A stretch of 64,000 nt of DNA, from the NCBI RefSeq assembly GCF_002283555.1, contig NZ_MVOI01000003.1, positions 62,001 through 126,000 on the forward strand. The letters are read 5' to 3'. The position numbers and the translations under genes are program-made. The stretch is from Rubrivirga sp. SAORIC476 (lineage in GTDB: Bacteria; Bacteroidota; Rhodothermia; Rhodothermales; Rubricoccaceae). The notes under the pieces are model-generated. The model did no database searches, was not told where the DNA came from, and saw only the letters and a program-made list of their open reading frames with translations. Shown one piece after another: positions 46,770 through 54,742 of this stretch; the first letter of the stretch is position 1, and every line of letters starts with the position of its first letter.

Positions 46770-46789
46770 CCGCCTCGGTGCCGAGGCGG
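46770..46789. repeat. Intergenic palindrome, copy 7
   Basis: CCGCCTCGG-TG-CCGAGGCGG, 16 nt beyond the stop of the ligase/lyase fusion gene. Confidence 0.85.
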
Positions 46790-46805
46790 AGCGAGGCAGA
46801 ACGCG

Positions 46806-49800
46806 TCAGCCGACCCGGACGGCCTGCCGCATCAGCTCCCGGTGCGCCGACCACGGGTCCCAGGCCTCGTTCATGACCACCGGGACGAGGCCGGACGTGC
46901 TCACCCCGTCGCCGCCAACGGACCGGGCGGCCGAGCGGACCGTCGGCACGGTGCGGCTGGCGTCGTAGGGGGCCTCCCAGATCGCGGCAACGCGAGCGAT
47001 GTCGTCGAACAGGGGACGGTCGGCGCGCAGCCCCTCGAAGGGCGGCATCCACATCGGCAGCGGGACGCGCGAGCCGGGGGCACGGCCTTCAGCGCGGAGG
47101 AACGAGAGCTGAGCCAGCGCGATGCCGACGGTCGCCAGCACCGGCGCGAGCCGCTCGGCCTGCCCGAGCGCCGTCCGCGCGGCGAGCGTGCCCATCGAGA
47201 CGATGTCCTGATTGCCTGCGTTGGTCGGGATCGACGAGGTGGACGCCATCTGGGCATGGTGCCGCATCTCAGCGACCAGCGCCGTCGCAGTCATCTGGGC
47301 GCCCGCGAGTCCACTCGTCGGGCCGGGCTCGTAGGCCAGCAGCAGCGGCGCCTCGACCACGCCGCGCTTGGGGTCGGTCAGGGCGTCGAGCAGGCGCTCG
47401 GCGAAGACGGCTGCCTGGACGATCGCGGCGTTGAGCGTGTCGGCGGCGAAAGCGATCTGCTGGCCCTGGAAGTTGCCCCCGTGGAGCGCCTCGGGGCGCG
47501 GGTCGGCGACCACGACCGGGTTGTCGGAGACGCCGTTCATCTCCGTCTCGACCGTCTGGCGCGCGAAGGCGAGGCTGTCCCGGCAGGCGCCGAGGATCTG
47601 AGGGGCGCACCGGAGGACGTAGACTTCCTGGAGCGGACGGCTCCGATCCTCGGTCTCGGTCCCCCGCTCGATCTCGGCGCGGATGGCGGCGGCGCTGCGC
47701 GCCTGCCCGGCGTGGCCGCGGGCGTCATGAAGGCGAGCGTCCAGCGCGGCGCGGCGGCACCCCAGCATGCGATACGCCCAGCCGACGAGCCGTTCGGTGC
47801 GCGACAGCAGGCGCTCCGCCCGGGCGACGGCGAGGGCGAGGGTCGCCGTCATGAAGGCGGTCCCGTTGACGAGGCCGAGCGCCTCACGGCCCGAGAGCGG
47901 CAGCGGCTCCAGGCCCGCAGCGGCGAGCGCCTCACGGGCGGGCACCCGGTCCCCTGTCGCCGGGTCGAGCGCCCAGCCCTCCCCCGTCAGCAGGCGGGCG
48001 ACGTGGGCGAGGGGGGTGAGGTCGCCACTGGCACCGACCGAGCCGATGCACGGCACGTACGGCACCAGCCCGGCGTGGAGAACGGCGAGGTACGCCTCCA
48101 CCACCTCCGGCGCGACGCCCGAGTGCCCCTGCGCGATCTGCTGCGCACGGACGAGGACGGTGGCCCTGGCGACCTCGGCCGAGGCGGGCGCCCCCCACCC
48201 CGCCGCGAGGTGGGCCGTCAGGTTGCTGCCGATGGCGTCGCCGGTCGCCCCGTGCGCGACGTGGGGGCCGAACCCGGTCGTCAGCCCGTACACCGCGTCG
48301 CCTCGGCGGATGACGGTGTCGAGAGCGGCCTTCGAGCGGCGCATGCCCGTCTGGGCGGCGTCCGATAGGGCGACGGTCGGGCTCGCCTCGCGGGCGGTCC
48401 GCTCCAGGCGGCGGACGTCGAGGGGGCGGTCGGGGCCGAGGGTCAGATGTGGGGTCGTCATGGCGGGCGGGAGCGGAGAGATCTGGAGGAGAGAGGAACG
48501 GTCCGGCGTGCCCTTGGCGAGCATCGGCCAGGCAGAGGCAGTGTGGGGTCGGATGGCGCCGAGGCGGCGCGCATGGGGTCCGAGGGCATCGGCGACGCGG
48601 GCGCGGACCGGGGGCCGTCCGTCCGTTAGCAGGTCGAGGGCCAGCGCTGTCCCGTCGGGCGTCGAAACGACGGCGTCGAGGACGCCGGGGAAGTCGCGTA
48701 GCGTGGCCTCCACCTCGCCCGCGCGCACGAAGCGCCCGTTGTCGAGCTTGAAGGCGTCGCCGGTGCGGCCGCGGAAGTAGAGGTCCCCACCGCGCCGCTC
48801 GACGCGGTCCTGGGTGCGGACCCAGCGGTCGGGATCGAGGCGGGTCAGCCCCTCACCCGCCGTCCAGATGCCCAGCGCGGCGTTCGCTCCCCGGAAGGAG
48901 AGCACCCCGTCCGCCTCGGTGCGGACGTGGCAGCCGAGTTCGCGGCCGAGCAATCCGGGCTCGGCGTGGCCCGGCCGACCGAGCGCGATGCCCGGTGAGG
49001 CCTCCGTCTGCCCGTAGCCGACGCGCAGGGAGGTACCGCGCATCGCCTGCGCATGGTCGGCTGCCAGCGGCGCCCCGCCCACGACGCCGCCGCGTAGTCG
49101 CGCGAGCAGGTCCTCTCCGCCCGGCTGGCCTACGAGCCGACGCAGCGTCAGCGGTACGCACGACAGGTGGGTCGACTCGGACGCCGAGGCGAGGTCGATC
49201 AGCGCCTCCGGGTCGCGGCCGGACTGGGGATCGCGGACCAGTTCGTCCGCCCAGAGCAGCGCGGGCAGGAGGTCCAGGATGAGACCGAAGGCATGGTGCC
49301 AGGGCAGGACAGACAGCACGCGGCCTCCGTCGAGCGCGAGCGGCTCTCGGTGGCTGTCGAGCACCGACCAGACCCCCGCATCGGACAGCGCGACCCAGGT
49401 CGGAGCACCCGTCGTCCCGGAGGTCCGGAGCAGAAATCGGGCGTCGGGGGTCGCGTCGTGGCGGGTGGACCGCCGCTGCGGGATGCCGAGGGGTCCGCCG
49501 ACATCGTCGGGCACCCAGGCGTGACCCGAAGGCCCGGCGTCGGCAGCAAGCACGGCGGCGGACGCGTCGACCGTGTCGAGGAGCGTGGCCGCCTCGGACG
49601 GCGGCGCGGGAACGAGGGTCAGCCCCTCCCACAGCGCAGCCACGAGGGCCTGCACGAAGGCCACCGACGGCGGCAGCCCGAGGACGATGCGGTCTCCCGG
49701 TTCGAGTCCGGCCTCGCGAAAGGCGCGGACGTAGGCGCGGGCGCCCGTCCAGATCGACGCCGCGGGCGTCGCGTCATCGTCGAAGACAAACAGCGGCTCC

Positions 49801-49877
49801 GGGGCGCCCGAGAGGGCGTGGAGCGTGCCGCGCCACCGCGCGTGTGCAGCGGGGAGCGACCGGTCGGAGGCAGACAT
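46806..49877 (-). CDS. Bifunctional p-coumarate:CoA ligase-like / tyrosine ammonia-lyase-like fusion
   Basis: 1023 residues in one open frame. Residues 1 to about 460 are an ANL adenylating domain: RTSGTTGAPT at 151-160, YGQTEAS near 288, GRTGDAFKLDNGRFVRAGEVEATL region near 370-395, and A10-type Lys455 in MLAKGTPDR. Residues 473-1023 are a MIO ammonia-lyase: Tyr530 in YGLTTGFG, His556-Leu557 at the site that selects tyrosine in TAL, MIO triad ASG at 616-618 in GASGDLTPLAH, and NGVSDNPVV near 780. TAL makes p-coumarate from tyrosine and the ligase activates it to the CoA thioester, the donor of the PYP chromophore. The pyp gene lies 84 nt upstream. Met473 could also start a free lyase. Specificity is inferred. 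Confidence 0.85.
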   Translation of the reverse strand: MSASDRSLPAAHARWRGTLHALSGAPEPLFVFDDDATPAASIWTGARAYVRAFREAGLEPGDRIVLGLPPSVAFVQALVAALWEGLTLVPAPPSEAATLLDTVDASAAVLAADAGPSGHAWVPDDVGGPLGIPQRRSTRHDATPDARFLLRTSGTTGAPTWVALSDAGVWSVLDSHREPLALDGGRVLSVLPWHHAFGLILDLLPALLWADELVRDPQSGRDPEALIDLASASESTHLSCVPLTLRRLVGQPGGEDLLARLRGGVVGGAPLAADHAQAMRGTSLRVGYGQTEASPGIALGRPGHAEPGLLGRELGCHVRTEADGVLSFRGANAALGIWTAGEGLTRLDPDRWVRTQDRVERRGGDLYFRGRTGDAFKLDNGRFVRAGEVEATLRDFPGVLDAVVSTPDGTALALDLLTDGRPPVRARVADALGPHARRLGAIRPHTASAWPMLAKGTPDRSSLLQISPLPPAMTTPHLTLGPDRPLDVRRLERTAREASPTVALSDAAQTGMRRSKAALDTVIRRGDAVYGLTTGFGPHVAHGATGDAIGSNLTAHLAAGWGAPASAEVARATVLVRAQQIAQGHSGVAPEVVEAYLAVLHAGLVPYVPCIGSVGASGDLTPLAHVARLLTGEGWALDPATGDRVPAREALAAAGLEPLPLSGREALGLVNGTAFMTATLALAVARAERLLSRTERLVGWAYRMLGCRRAALDARLHDARGHAGQARSAAAIRAEIERGTETEDRSRPLQEVYVLRCAPQILGACRDSLAFARQTVETEMNGVSDNPVVVADPRPEALHGGNFQGQQIAFAADTLNAAIVQAAVFAERLLDALTDPKRGVVEAPLLLAYEPGPTSGLAGAQMTATALVAEMRHHAQMASTSSIPTNAGNQDIVSMGTLAARTALGQAERLAPVLATVGIALAQLSFLRAEGRAPGSRVPLPMWMPPFEGLRADRPLFDDIARVAAIWEAPYDASRTVPTVRSAARSVGGDGVSTSGLVPVVMNEAWDPWSAHRELMRQAVRVG

Positions 49878-49913
49878 CAGAGGAGCGGAAGGGTCCGAGG
49901 GGCGTCAACCGGA

Positions 49914-49936
49914 CGGCCCCGGCGCGGCCGGGGCCG
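49914..49936. terminator. GC hairpin between pyp and the fusion gene
   Basis: Ten-bp perfect stem CGGCCCCGGC / GCCGGGGCCG, 3-nt loop. No T-run; it could attenuate or stabilise the upstream pyp message. Confidence 0.4.
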
Positions 49937-49961
49937 CGCCGTCCGTCCGCTCACGCGTCGA

Positions 49962-50324
49962 CTACCGCTTCTTGATGAGGACCCAGTTGGAGCCCCCGTC
50001 GTCCTTGTGCATGATCACACGCACGAGGGTGGGCCGCATCTTGTACGTGAAGGTGTACACGAACTCGGCGGCGAGGTCTCCCCGGGCGATGCCCTGCTTG
50101 AAGCGGCCGTAGAACAGGCGGCTGTTGGAGCACGGAGCGACCTGGGTGAAGAAGTTGCGGCCGCGGGCCGCCTCGGGGGCGACGCCGGCGAGCTGACTCT
50201 CGTAGGTGTTGTAGAACTCGACCGTGCCGGTGTCATCCACCTTGACGACGCCGAAGTCGAGGGCGTTGAGCTCCTCGGGCGACATGGTGGGCAGCTTGGC
50301 GAGGGTTCCGTTGACGAAGCTCAT
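49962..50324 (-). CDS. pyp: Photoactive yellow protein (blue-light receptor)
   Basis: 120 residues, a single PAS domain. It aligns along its length with Halorhodospira PYP: LDFGVVKVDDTGTVEFYN, GRNFFTQVAPCSNSRLFYGRFKQG and FVYTFTYKMRPTLVRV. Chromophore Cys65 corresponds to Cys69, Tyr38 to Tyr42, Glu42 to Glu46, and Tyr94/Met96 to Tyr98/Met100. Thr50 and Arg52 of the halophilic protein are Ala46 and Val48 here, which should tune absorption and photocycle speed. PYP binds p-coumarate as a thioester and isomerises under blue light. The soluble protein lies between the genes for its likely chromophore enzyme and a PYP-like coiled-coil protein. Confidence 0.95.
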   Translation of the reverse strand: MSFVNGTLAKLPTMSPEELNALDFGVVKVDDTGTVEFYNTYESQLAGVAPEAARGRNFFTQVAPCSNSRLFYGRFKQGIARGDLAAEFVYTFTYKMRPTLVRVIMHKDDGGSNWVLIKKR

Positions 50325-50369
50325 GGCTGGGGGGGTGTTGAGCGGGGGACTGAATAGCGAGGGAAACGA

Positions 50370-50384
50370 GCGCCCCGAGGGCGC
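50370..50384 (-). terminator. Small hairpin before pyp
   Basis: GCGCCC-TCG-GGGCGC, followed on the minus strand by TCGTTT. It lies 21 nt after the coiled-coil gene stop and may reduce read-through into pyp. Confidence 0.35.
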
Positions 50385-50405
50385 AACTGAGCCGCCGGCT
50401 CGGGG

Positions 50406-52727
50406 TCAGGCGCGACGGAGCAGGATCCAGGAATGCTGGGCTCCTTCGGCGCGGTGGATCTGGACGACGAGGTTTTCGGAGTCCTCCCCACGCAGGAACG
50501 TGTAGGGGAAGGCCGTGTCGATGTGCCCGGCGAACAGGCCGCGCTTGAAGCGACCGTAGAACAGGCGGTTGTTGGTCGAGGGCGCGACGTCCGAGAAGAA
50601 GCCCTGGCCGACGACCGTCGCGTCGTCGAGGCCGCCGAGCTCGTCGTCGGGCTCGTGGATCGCGACGATCACACCGTGGTCGTCGAGGGCGACGGCCGCG
50701 AACGGCAGGCTCGCGAGGCGGCTCGCGTCGGGGTGCTCGTCGAGCGCGTCCAGCGTCGCGATGTCGTCGTCGCTGGCGTAGAGGGCGGCCTCGGAGGCCG
50801 TGGTGGCCGTGGCCGGGGCCTGCGCGTGGAAGGTCTCCAGCTGGCCCCGAAGGGTGCGGACGAGTTCGACGACCGCCTCGGGGTCGCCGACGCCCAGTTC
50901 GCGCTCCAGCACGGTCGTGGCGTTCTCGCTCTCGGCCTTCTCCTTGTAGAGCTCGCCGAGTTGCTCCTCCATCGACTGGACGAGGTCGAGCAGCTCCTCG
51001 GGGTCCGAGAGACCGGCAGCGACGAGGCGCTGCTTCTCGCCGTAGAGCTCGCCGAGCTGGCGCTTCAGGTTGCCGATCAGGTAGACGGCCTCGTCAGCGT
51101 CGGCGACACCGGCGTCGGCCATGCGGCGCTTCTCCTGGTAGAGGGCGTCGAGCTGCCCCTGGAGGTTCTGGATGGTGGCGACGAGCGAGCGACCCGCGGA
51201 GAGCTTGGCGGTCGCCTTGGCGGTCGCTTCGGCTTCCATGCCCGCGAGGCGGGACTCGTAGGTACGGAGCTCGTCTTCGAGTTCGCGGGCGGCCTCCAGT
51301 TCGCCGAGCACGGTCTGCAGCGACCGGCGCATGTCCGAGAGGGCGCCGCTGAAGGCGTGGGCCTTCTCCACCTCAGCCGCGATCAGGTCGAGGCTCTCGA
51401 CGGCGTCGTCGGGGACGGTGCCCTCGTCGACGAGACGGTTGCGGGCGGCGAGGGCGGCCTCCTTCTCCTGGTACAGGTCCACGACCTGCTGCTCCAGGCT
51501 GGAGATCACCTCCAGCGCCGAGGCCGGGTCGTCGAAGCCCGCCCTGGACATCGCTTCGAGGTCGGTATAGAGCGACTTGAGCTGGTCCTCCATCGACCCC
51601 ATCACTTCGAGGATCTCCTTGGCCGAGCCCACGCCGGCCTCGCTCAGCGCGATGCGGTCCTCGTAGAGCTCGGACAGCTGGTCTTCCATCGAGCGGACGA
51701 GCTCTACGGCGCCCTCGGGGTCCTCGACGCCCAGTTCGGTGCGGAGCACGTCCAGCTTGGCGTAGAGCTGCTGGAGTTGCTGGACCGGGTCGCCGGTCTC
51801 GGCCATCTCCAGCGCCCGCGTGGTCGCCTCGCGGTCGCGGTACAGCTCAGAGAGCTGCTCCTTCATGTTCTCGATCATCTCGAGGGCCTCCTCGACGTCG
51901 GCGATGCCGTGCTCGCCCAGGGCCTCGCGCTCCTTGTACAGGTCGGCGAGCTGCGCCTCCATCGAGCCGATGAGCGCCGCGGCCTCGCCCAGCCCGCCGA
52001 CCCCGAGCTCGCGCTCGAACGCCGCCGCGCTCGGCCCGTCCTCGTCATCGACGCGGGCCTCGACGGCCTCGCGCTCCTTGTAGAGCTCGGCCAGTTGCTC
52101 CTCCATCGAGCGGACGAGGTCGACCGCGTCCTCGATGGAGGGAACGCCGAGGTCTCGCTGGACCGTCTCGATGCGCGCGTAGAGCGCCTGCAGTTGAGTG
52201 AACGTGTCGGCGTTCTCGTCGGCCGACAGGATGCGCTCGGTGGTCTCGCGGTCCTGGTACAACTCGACGAGCTGGTCCTCCATCGACTTGACCAGAGCGA
52301 GCACGTCCTCGGGCGTGTCCGTGCCCAGCTCCGAGTGGAGCCGCTCGACGGAGCGCGTCGCTTTGGTGGCCTCGCGAGTGGTCTTCTCTGCGATGGCCGC
52401 CGCGGTCTGCATCTCGGCGCCGTCCTCGTAGAGGGCCGAGAGCTGTGCGTCCATGCTGTCGATGAGTTCGACCAGCTCCTCGCTCGACCCGACCCCGTAG
52501 CGGTCCTTCATGCGGTCGCGGTCGAGGTAGAAGGCGTACAGCTCCCGGGTGACGCGGGCGTACTGCTCCGGAGAGCCATTCTCGTCGGCGACCTCGCGGG
52601 CGCTGTAGAACTCGGCGAGCTGGTCCTCCATCGACCGCACGAGGTCGACGATCTCGGCGGCCGAGGTCGTGCCGAGCTCTCGGTCAAGGAGGGCGAACTG
52701 CGCCTGGGGATCGGAGGGGACTTCCAT
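50406..52727 (-). CDS. Coiled-coil repeat protein with a Cys-less PYP-like PAS domain
   Basis: 773 residues, acidic, no signal peptide or membrane helix. Residues about 15-640 carry 13 copies of a motif close to VRSMEDQLSELYEDRE, most preceded by G(V/I)xDPEEA-like helices, predicting a long coiled coil or helical rod. Residues about 665-773 align with PYP (LPFAAVALDDHGVIV, GFFSDVAPSTNNRLFYGRFKRG, WILLRRA). At the Cys69 position there is Ser717, and at Tyr42 an Ile, so it cannot carry the usual thioester chromophore. It may sense or bind the photoactive PYP encoded just downstream. No kinase, cyclase or chemoreceptor domain is evident, so its output is unknown. Confidence 0.85.
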   Translation of the reverse strand: MEVPSDPQAQFALLDRELGTTSAAEIVDLVRSMEDQLAEFYSAREVADENGSPEQYARVTRELYAFYLDRDRMKDRYGVGSSEELVELIDSMDAQLSALYEDGAEMQTAAAIAEKTTREATKATRSVERLHSELGTDTPEDVLALVKSMEDQLVELYQDRETTERILSADENADTFTQLQALYARIETVQRDLGVPSIEDAVDLVRSMEEQLAELYKEREAVEARVDDEDGPSAAAFERELGVGGLGEAAALIGSMEAQLADLYKEREALGEHGIADVEEALEMIENMKEQLSELYRDREATTRALEMAETGDPVQQLQQLYAKLDVLRTELGVEDPEGAVELVRSMEDQLSELYEDRIALSEAGVGSAKEILEVMGSMEDQLKSLYTDLEAMSRAGFDDPASALEVISSLEQQVVDLYQEKEAALAARNRLVDEGTVPDDAVESLDLIAAEVEKAHAFSGALSDMRRSLQTVLGELEAARELEDELRTYESRLAGMEAEATAKATAKLSAGRSLVATIQNLQGQLDALYQEKRRMADAGVADADEAVYLIGNLKRQLGELYGEKQRLVAAGLSDPEELLDLVQSMEEQLGELYKEKAESENATTVLERELGVGDPEAVVELVRTLRGQLETFHAQAPATATTASEAALYASDDDIATLDALDEHPDASRLASLPFAAVALDDHGVIVAIHEPDDELGGLDDATVVGQGFFSDVAPSTNNRLFYGRFKRGLFAGHIDTAFPYTFLRGEDSENLVVQIHRAEGAQHSWILLRRA

Positions 52728-53099
52728 GGAAACGGGGGCAGTGGGGCGAAGCCGCAGGGCCTCGAAGTCGGTTGCCCCCCCTCTCCCAACATCCGCGCCA
52801 GCAGATCGGGCTCCCGTGCTCTTCGCCCGATCCCCCTCCACCAGATGGGCTGGCGCGCGCTCGGGGGCGTCCTAAGCGACTGGAAACTCAGCCAATAAGG
52901 AAATTCCTTAGCACCTCTCCGTTACGAATCCACCCCATCAAAGGGGGATTTGGTACTCGCGGCCCCCTGTGGCTCGCGCCTGCGGACTGCGCTGGAGGGG
53001 CAGGACCTCGCTCGGGCACGCCGACGTGACGATTGCGCGGGCGGGAGCGGCACGGAACCCGATTTGCCAGTTCCGGGGCCACGACACCTCTCCCTCTCT
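52728..53099. promoter_or_regulatory. Divergent control region of the PYP locus
   Basis: 372 bp between the coiled-coil gene and the plus-strand gene at 53100. It holds an AT-rich stretch (52885-52960) unusual for this GC-rich window, including the palindrome at 52896. Weak -7-like boxes are CGGCTTCG (minus strand 52754-52747, 19 nt before the ATG at 52727) and CCAGTTCC (53067-53074, 25 nt before the ATG at 53100). Confidence 0.4.
52896..52910. promoter_or_regulatory. Operator-like palindrome TAAGGAA-A-TTCCTTA
   Basis: Perfect 15-bp inverted repeat, AT-rich, in the middle of the divergent region. Such a site would suit a dimeric repressor or activator; no regulator gene is adjacent. Confidence 0.45.
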
Positions 53100-53726
53100 A
53101 TGCTTACCCCCTACAGCGTCAAGGACGCCCTCACCGCCGCCGCCCTCGAAGAGGGCTGGGCGCAGACCCTCGCAGAGTGGCACGACGCGGCGCACTCGCA
53201 GATCCTCGCCACGCTCGCCTACACCCGAGGGCTCCGCAACCAGATCCTCAACGTGACAGCGGAGATGGACAGCATGGAGGAGCTCGAGCGCATCCTCGCG
53301 CTGTGCTACATCGACCTCAAGTGCCAGTGGTCGATCCTCAACGTGCAGATCCAGTACGCGGCCGCCCACCGCGGCGAGATCCGCGAGGACCTGATGTACC
53401 GAGCCACGTGCGTGACCCAACTCCTCGACCGCGTCGAGGGCCTCCTCTCGCAGAGCGACGTGGATGCCATGACGGAGATGATCTCCGAACCCATCGGGAG
53501 CGCGGGATATGGCGCGGCGGCGTCCGCCCCCGCTCCTCCACCCGCACCCGTCCCGCCCCCGGTCGCGCCGGTCCGCATGGCTCCCGCCCAGGACAGGCCG
53601 ATCCCCGTGGCGCCTGCGCCGTTCGCTCCGCTGTCGCCGGCGTACGTCGCGCGTCCGCAGCCCGGGCCGTCCCGGCCGGTGCACCCGACGCCCGAGGAGA
53701 TCGGGACGCCGGAGTTGCCCGTTTAG
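53100..53726 (+). CDS. Helical protein with Pro-rich tail, unknown, divergent from the PYP locus
   Basis: 208 residues. The first about 130 are helical (SVKDALTAAALEEGWAQTL, then MEELERILALCYIDLKCQW near 58-77, and CVTQLLDRVEGLLSQSDVDAMTEMI near 103). The remainder is a low-complexity Pro/Ala tail (APAPPPAPVPPPVAPVRM and so on), as in proteins that bind a partner through a flexible arm. I do not recognise a family. Its start faces the coiled-coil gene across a shared control region, so co-regulation with the light receptor is possible but not shown. Confidence 0.65.
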   Translation: MLTPYSVKDALTAAALEEGWAQTLAEWHDAAHSQILATLAYTRGLRNQILNVTAEMDSMEELERILALCYIDLKCQWSILNVQIQYAAAHRGEIREDLMYRATCVTQLLDRVEGLLSQSDVDAMTEMISEPIGSAGYGAAASAPAPPPAPVPPPVAPVRMAPAQDRPIPVAPAPFAPLSPAYVARPQPGPSRPVHPTPEEIGTPELPV

Positions 53727-53753
53727 ACGCCGACGCCTCGCAGTTCCGGTCTA

Positions 53754-53773
53754 CCGCCTCGGTGCCGAGGCGG
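53754..53773. repeat. Intergenic palindrome, copy 8
   Basis: CCGCCTCGG-TG-CCGAGGCGG between converging genes, 27 nt after one stop and 6 nt beyond the other. Confidence 0.85.
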
Positions 53774-53779
53774 GCGGCC

Positions 53780-54742
53780 TCAGGCTGACGTCAGAAGCCT
53801 CACGTCGCGCGTGGACTGCTGGAACGCGGCGACTTCGGCGCCGTCGCGAAGCACTCGGGTGGCCCACGTCCACGTGGTGTCGGCCGTCGCGTCCGTCTCC
53901 AGGGCCACCCGAATGCGGTCGCCGGGCGCCACCTCGACGGCGTGGCTGAGCGGGAACACGGCCTGCTCCCAGCTCGGCGCGGCGCTGGGGGGCGCGTTGC
54001 TCAACACGACGCCCCCACCGAGGTCCGACCGGAACCAGCCCCCGAAGGCGTTGACCGTCCCGGCCGTCTCGACGACGAACTCGGCCGCCATCGGGATCGT
54101 CTCGGGGCCGCCGTACGGGAGACGCGCGGACCATACCGTCTGAGCGGGGCAGCGCACCGCCTCGGGCCAGATGAACATTGAGCGCGGCACGTTGCGCGAG
54201 GCCGCCTCCAGGTGCGAGAAGTCGACGCCGTAGTCGAGGTCCGCCACCGAGAGGCGCTCCCGCAGGCCGCGCAGGCCGATCGGTGCGAGCCGAACCTCGA
54301 CCGTCCCTGGGATGATGGCCGCGCCCGGGCGGAGCCACCGCCGGACGGCGTCGGACACGGTCGAGAGCAGGCCCTCGCCGAGGCCCAGGTTCCAGAGCGT
54401 CTCCGTGATCAGCACGTCCGCCCGCTCAGGCGGATCGAGGACCGTCGACTCGCCACGGAGGAACGAGATGCGATCCGCCAGCCCGTTGCGGCGCGCGAGG
54501 TCGCGGGCGACGTCCAGCACGGGGCCGCGGTCGATGGCGTAGACGTGCCGCGCGCCCGCCTGGCACGCGAACAGCGAGAGGATGCCCGTCCCGCACCCGA
54601 TGTCGACCACGACGTCCCCCTCGACGACGGTGGCGTGGACGGCCTCGCGGAAGGCGTTCGTCCGGACCGTGTCCCGGAGCATCGAGACGTGGTAGTCGAG
54701 GAACTGGGCGGTGTCGTGGGTCGACGGCGGGAGCGGGGTCAA
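53780..54742 (-). CDS. Class I SAM methyltransferase, PRMT-like
   Basis: 320 residues from a TTG that overlaps the helicase stop. YHVSMLRDTVRTNAFREAV near 18-36 resembles the start of protein-arginine methyltransferases, and VVVDIGCGTGILSLFACQAGARHVYAID near 45 is AdoMet motif I/post I. ITETLWNLGLGEGLL near 111 stands where PRMTs have the first Glu of the double-E loop. The C-terminal beta-barrel region (WPEAVRCPAQTVWSARLPYGG, WTWATRVL) also fits the PRMT fold. The substrate is unknown; arginine methylation is a family guess. A start at Met21 is possible. Confidence 0.75.
   Translation of the reverse strand: MTPLPPSTHDTAQFLDYHVSMLRDTVRTNAFREAVHATVVEGDVVVDIGCGTGILSLFACQAGARHVYAIDRGPVLDVARDLARRNGLADRISFLRGESTVLDPPERADVLITETLWNLGLGEGLLSTVSDAVRRWLRPGAAIIPGTVEVRLAPIGLRGLRERLSVADLDYGVDFSHLEAASRNVPRSMFIWPEAVRCPAQTVWSARLPYGGPETIPMAAEFVVETAGTVNAFGGWFRSDLGGGVVLSNAPPSAAPSWEQAVFPLSHAVEVAPGDRIRVALETDATADTTWTWATRVLRDGAEVAAFQQSTRDVRLLTSA

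Follow-up and report, generated by a model that had tools for sequence, protein, structure and literature searches.

A ligase and a lyase share one open reading frame in Rubrivirga sp. SAORIC476, beside a gene for a photoactive yellow protein (PYP). The window referred to throughout is the whole stretch of DNA analysed, 64,000 nucleotides long, and the locus within it holds the following features.

46806..49877, minus strand: fused ligase–lyase gene; single open frame, 1023 aa, with Pfam domains
48498..49877, minus strand: ligase part, residues 1–460, ANL fold; Pfam AMP-binding; Lys455 at 48515–48513
48462..48497, minus strand: linker, residues 461–472, 36 bases; in relatives this place is taken by a stop codon, in most of them with a spacer
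48459..48481, minus strand: retained lyase start region; pyrimidine-rich tract and the ATG of Met473
46809..48461, minus strand: lyase part, residues 473–1023, MIO lyase of the tyrosine type; His556, Ala-Ser-Gly 616–618
49962..50324, minus strand: PYP, 120 aa; TIGR02373 at 1e-31; Tyr38, Glu42 and Cys65 corresponding to Tyr42, Glu46 and Cys69
50406..52841, minus strand: 811-aa repeat protein with a C-terminal PYP-like domain in which Ser replaces the chromophore Cys
52950..53726, plus strand: 258-aa protein with a proline-rich tail, without a Pfam or NCBIfam match
53780..54742, minus strand: methyltransferase, PRMT-type C-terminal match (Pfam)
46770..54742, no strand: block of ~8 kb with the pyp genes, not present between these flanking genes in any of the three congeners

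The fused gene starts with an ATG at 49877 and stops at 46808–46806 on the minus strand, with zero internal stops over its 1023 residues. A genome-trained frame decoder held a single frame across 3024 of the 3072 bases and called the other 48 non-coding. Pfam placed AMP-binding at residues 46–312 (1.1e-26) and Lyase_aromatic at 486–930 (1e-128), both passing the cut-offs. A reading made earlier from the sequence alone had put both domains into one 1023-residue frame, and the open frame and the two Pfam domains bear this out.

In the ligase part, Glu292, Asp357, Arg371 and Lys455, which we take to be the ANL catalytic residues, were invariant in all 15 ligases aligned, the fused one included; the choice of Lys455 as an ANL landmark thus holds. 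The single-sequence match of this part to proven 4CLs is distant (4.2e-7). A profile of the 15 ligases reached four PDB sequences below 1e-15: a feruloyl-CoA synthetase (8wev, 1.7e-19), a fatty-acyl-CoA synthase, a 4CL (3a9u, 4.6e-18) and a salicyl-AMP ligase. The ligase part is predicted to be a p-coumaroyl-CoA ligase, its substrate specificity being part of that prediction. The stand-alone 4CL and feruloyl-CoA ligases 3a9u, 5bst and 8wev share its ANL fold at ~20% identity in the fold alignment.

In the lyase part, Ala616, Ser617 and Gly618 (the MIO triad) and His556 were invariant in six of six rows of our alignment A2, two of which are near-identical. His556 aligns with His89 of R. sphaeroides TAL (2o6y), a residue with a role in tyrosine selectivity; the corresponding position is Phe in 2o78, which is titled a His89Phe variant. 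Met473 matches the start of the relatives' separate lyase gene. These alignments confirmed the assignment of a MIO lyase beginning at Met473, with its Ala-Ser-Gly at 616–618 and a TAL-type His556. Of the solved lyases, 2o6y itself is the closest in sequence (38% identity); it has the equivalent His89 and is stand-alone, unlike the fused lyase. The lyase part did not reach the cut-off of any of the 25 listed NCBIfam models, HAL coming closest with 377 of 524 bits. Besides the fused gene, the source genome has one further PF00221 gene at another place, which scores higher and is probably the HAL. Judged by its sequence, the lyase part is predicted to convert tyrosine to p-coumarate.

A fold model of the whole protein, built from a 51-row alignment, had a mean pLDDT of 85.8 and a pTM of 0.58, at which the relative placement of the ligase and lyase domains is unreliable; an earlier fold from 6 sequences (mean pLDDT 52.8) was set aside. 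Confidence fell below 50 at residues 454–457 and 469–475, at the junction, among other stretches. The protein is modelled as two complete domains joined by a short link. The lyase part matched a tyrosine aminomutase (Z 43.2) and R. sphaeroides TAL 2o6y (Z 40.8), so that by Z aminomutases fit the lyase fold as well as TAL or better. For the ligase part, the match to the 4CL 5bst (Z 35.3) was tied with those to NRPS adenylation domains and other ANL enzymes (Z 34.6–35.6).

Relatives with separate ligase and lyase genes

A match at E 1e-75 or better was found in 21 of the 114 genomes of the order, the source genome counted. Eleven of the 20 other matching genomes carry ligase and lyase in tandem, with the ligase first in every one. 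At all 11 tandem junctions the ligase frame runs into a stop codon upstream of the lyase start or right at it; the two genes are in the same frame in five pairs and in different frames in six. The ligase and lyase lie at separate places in G316, G155, G203 and G434, the ligase alone was found in G207, G437, G440 and G441, and in G427 the lyase is cut by the contig end. The sequence-only reading had remarked that the domain order, ligase before lyase, is opposite to the reaction order. This is true, and it is explained by the relatives: all 11 tandem pairs are ligase-first, and the fused protein has kept that older order of the genes.

The nearest relative is G421, which matches at 59% over residues 11–985 with one TGA and is unfused. 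Its pair has the same PYP and repeat protein as neighbours, in the order seen here, but a stop codon separates ligase from lyase. The source and G421 are sisters in the lyase tree (97/94) and the PYP tree (100/99); the ligase tree is weak (83/27). As G421 is both unfused and the sister of the source, the fusion is later than the split between the two. The terminal branches of the fused gene are long (0.72 for the ligase, 0.71 for the lyase), and the G421 ligase branch is equally long.

Among the 114 genomes of the order, with up to seven candidates scored in each and G427 cut as described, the ligase–lyase fusion was found in one genome only. The eight other members of the same family were without a match across both parts and without a PYP-type match. 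No second fusion appeared among the matches listed for 395 genomes spread evenly over the phylum, nor in 294 genomes from the phylum of the Planctomycete genome L053, with two candidates scored per genome in both sets. On plasmids, 359 records matched and none spanned 80% of the query. A pattern scan of contigs gave four loci; fusions of more distant enzymes would escape all of these searches. A natural TAL–ligase fusion was not found in the literature by title or abstract start, in a body of mostly open-access papers without supplements.

Several candidates were rejected. For G436, an open frame of 1113 had been reported for both parts, and a TAG at the junction makes them separate genes. The Planctomycete loci L053 and L054 are two genes each, lyase first. 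A match over 352–965 on a Streptomyces zaomyceticus plasmid comprises two separate genes. The G005 frame of 892 is a lyase adjoining another gene, with N within the stretch, and the Pseudacidovorax locus L055 has a CoA ligase beside transporter-like genes, with no PYP seen by eye. In L053 (1627–5345) and L054 (7878–11710) the ligase gene, which comes after the lyase gene, encodes 676 or 679 aa.

The junction and the lyase start at Met473

The fused gene has 12 codons from Arg460 to the lyase ATG and G421 has 21, with ten sense codons before a stop at the eleventh and spacer after it. The residues of the ligase tail differ between the two, and this altered tail could have changed ligase activity. 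The first lyase residues, MTTPHLTLGPD, still resemble those of the relatives' free lyases. Frame +1 of the linker ends with a TGA that overlaps the ATG of Met473, a stop-start overlap also present in G428 and G429. One extra base in the 36-base linker sets the fusion apart from such a coupled pair, so that a single indel there would suffice to convert a gene pair into the fusion or the fusion into a pair. The fusion would go back to adjacent pCL and TAL genes of the kind that many relatives have; with the ligase stop lost to an indel at that gene's end, the two would have come to share a frame.

The overlapping TGA in frame +1, its counterparts in G428 and G429 and the intact lyase start context are also what a sequence or assembly error would leave, in which case the ligase in the cell would end in the TGA overlapping the lyase ATG and the locus would be a normal coupled pair. 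We hold this to be quite improbable, however, given that no convincing frameshift was found in 431,659 coding bases of the same genome. Frame decoding covered 464 kb and gave 126 same-strand frame switches, six of which were flagged by stop distance; judged by eye only, these six seemed to be gene starts or short spurious frames, one of them beside a run of N. By the rule of three, this corresponds to fewer than ~7e-6 frameshifts per base and hence to fewer than ~2.5e-4 for the 36-base linker. A sequence error at the linker is therefore unlikely.

A real change of sequence might still be a recent frameshift specific to this isolate, which fused the chains without benefit and may have impaired one or both activities. 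That the fusion is seen once, that the start signal at Met473 is retained and that the ligase tail is changed all accord with such an accident, as do the long terminal branches, although the G421 ligase branch is as long. The catalytic residues tested are nevertheless intact and neither domain holds a stop, and we are inclined to doubt this explanation.

The retained start itself was compared with other ATGs. Over the last 18 bases, the pyrimidine fraction averaged 0.669 before 205 ATG starts vs 0.489 before 1124 internal ATGs, those of the fused gene included, and it is 0.83 before Met473. With the window kept outside training, the context score of Met473 was 5.92, a value reached by 82 of 176 starts (cross-validated) and by five of 955 internal ATGs. 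All ten relatives measured have a pyrimidine-rich tract (67–87% of 15 bases) ahead of the lyase start, which in two of the ten is an uncertain TTG or GTG. A C-rich pyrimidine tract precedes ATG starts in this window of 71.5% GC and in L135–L154.

Taken together, the pyrimidine-rich tract that Met473 shares with the ATG starts of the genome, its score and the conservation of the tract in relatives suggest that the locus could have a dual output, a fused chain and a free lyase begun at Met473, which would assemble into mixed tetramers. This would be compatible with a real fusion. On the other hand, Met452 of the same gene scores 5.50, so that local C-rich composition may contribute, and the relatives' lyase start may need termination just upstream, which is gone here. 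We regard dual output as a possibility to be taken seriously, short of an expectation. Because the old start signal has been kept, the simple one-chain reading is weakened and a free lyase becomes plausible; from these start features, free lyase may be made besides the fusion. A fusion of very recent date, internal initiation and an assembly error would each account about equally well for the retained context at Met473.

Predicted role in PYP chromophore synthesis

PYP is a model photoreceptor; to our knowledge, the delivery of its chromophore inside cells has been little studied. The PYP gene lies 84 bases upstream of the fused gene. We consider it likely that the product of the latter is a bifunctional enzyme making the PYP chromophore, and that the gene was born from a neighbouring pCL–TAL pair by an indel, with the substrates, the course of events and the single-chain product deduced rather than observed. 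In this scheme, the C-terminal lyase would convert tyrosine to p-coumarate, the N-terminal ligase would convert p-coumarate, ATP and CoA to p-coumaroyl-CoA, and p-coumaroyl-CoA would load Cys65 of the PYP encoded just upstream. Channelling of p-coumarate between the two sites is speculative. Of the original proposal of a fusion protein for the PYP chromophore, the single frame beside PYP stands and the role in PYP is probable; that the gene yields one chain as its sole product does not follow, given the retained start at Met473.

The lyase and ligase could instead serve some other aromatic product. Adjacent AMP-binding and cmdF genes on the Streptomyces plasmid, and the neighbouring lyase and ligase genes of the two Planctomycete contigs, would be in keeping with this. 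Here, however, PYP adjoins the fused gene, 11 of the 19 ligase-bearing relatives have a Cys-bearing PYP within the stretch examined around the ligase, and no polyketide or NRPS gene was found among the eight proteins scanned between 41478 and 54742. A product other than PYP therefore seems highly improbable to us.

MIO lyases are tetramers, and a tetrameric lyase would carry up to four ligase arms per particle. If the bifunctional enzyme were made together with free lyase, the two could form mixed MIO tetramers with a tunable number of ligase arms and hand p-coumaroyl-CoA on locally to PYP, the fusion being newly born from a coupled pair. We offer this as a conjecture that is more probably wrong than right by some distance.

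The closest known arrangement is the pyp operon of Halorhodospira halophila, which has the same three activities in the same order, pyp–ligase–lyase (the portion of PMC12826048 used here). There, pyp, pCL and TAL are three genes, and ligase and lyase are two proteins, unlike the one open frame described here. The same portion of that article counts 7 TAL and 42 pCL genes in 113 predicted pyp operons, and the domains joined to PYP that it lists include no ligase–lyase fusion by name (PMC12826048). Consecutive phenylpropanoid enzymes have been joined likewise in man-made fusions, but these are engineered (e.g. PMC4779194, in the part available to us). The architecture is thus probably new and built of known component enzymes, most likely serving PYP, and the fusion is probably recent.

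If true, a natural TAL–ligase chain would supply p-coumaroyl-CoA from a single gene, ready for use in making holo-PYP and phenylpropanoids. It would also permit a direct test of channelling, with the unfused sister pair of G421 as the control. The locus illustrates how a neighbouring gene pair may become a fusion through one small indel.

The ~8-kb block around the PYP gene

The PYP scored 109.6 bits on TIGR02373, under the curated cut-off of 143.05, and none of the 114 genomes of the order reached that cut-off; a PYP-type match at 1e-5 or better was present in 24 of them. TIGR02373 covers ~20% of PYP homologs, and Salinibacter PYPs fall in clade B, with Cys69 substitutions and Y42F reported (both from the accessible part of PMC9664959). 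The canonical PYPs of the relatives keep the chromophore Cys in 11 of 11 cases. At the Tyr42 place, nine of these 11 have Phe; Tyr is found in the PYP described here and in those of G421 and G438.

In the PYP-like domains of the relatives' repeat proteins, the chromophore Cys is replaced by Ser, Ala, Gly or Asp in all ten that were scored (the domains of L080 and L081 were unscored), and nine of the ten share their stretch with a Cys-bearing PYP. The chromophore-less domain beside PYP could be its signalling partner.

One flank of the block is a 2-hydroxyacid dehydrogenase gene (Pfam) and the other is presumably a UvrD-type helicase gene. Matches to the flanking genes are 1,099 (G006), 737 (G007) and 157 (G008) bases apart in the three congeners vs 7,972 here, and a search of the empty site in these congeners did not find the 258-aa protein and methyltransferase genes there. 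Either this genome acquired the block or all three congeners lost it. Its GC fraction of 0.716 equals the 0.715 of the window, which has no bearing on gain vs loss. Between PYP and the fused gene, at 49878–49961 on the minus strand, lies a GC-rich hairpin that is no stronger than those of shuffled sequences (z −1.19).
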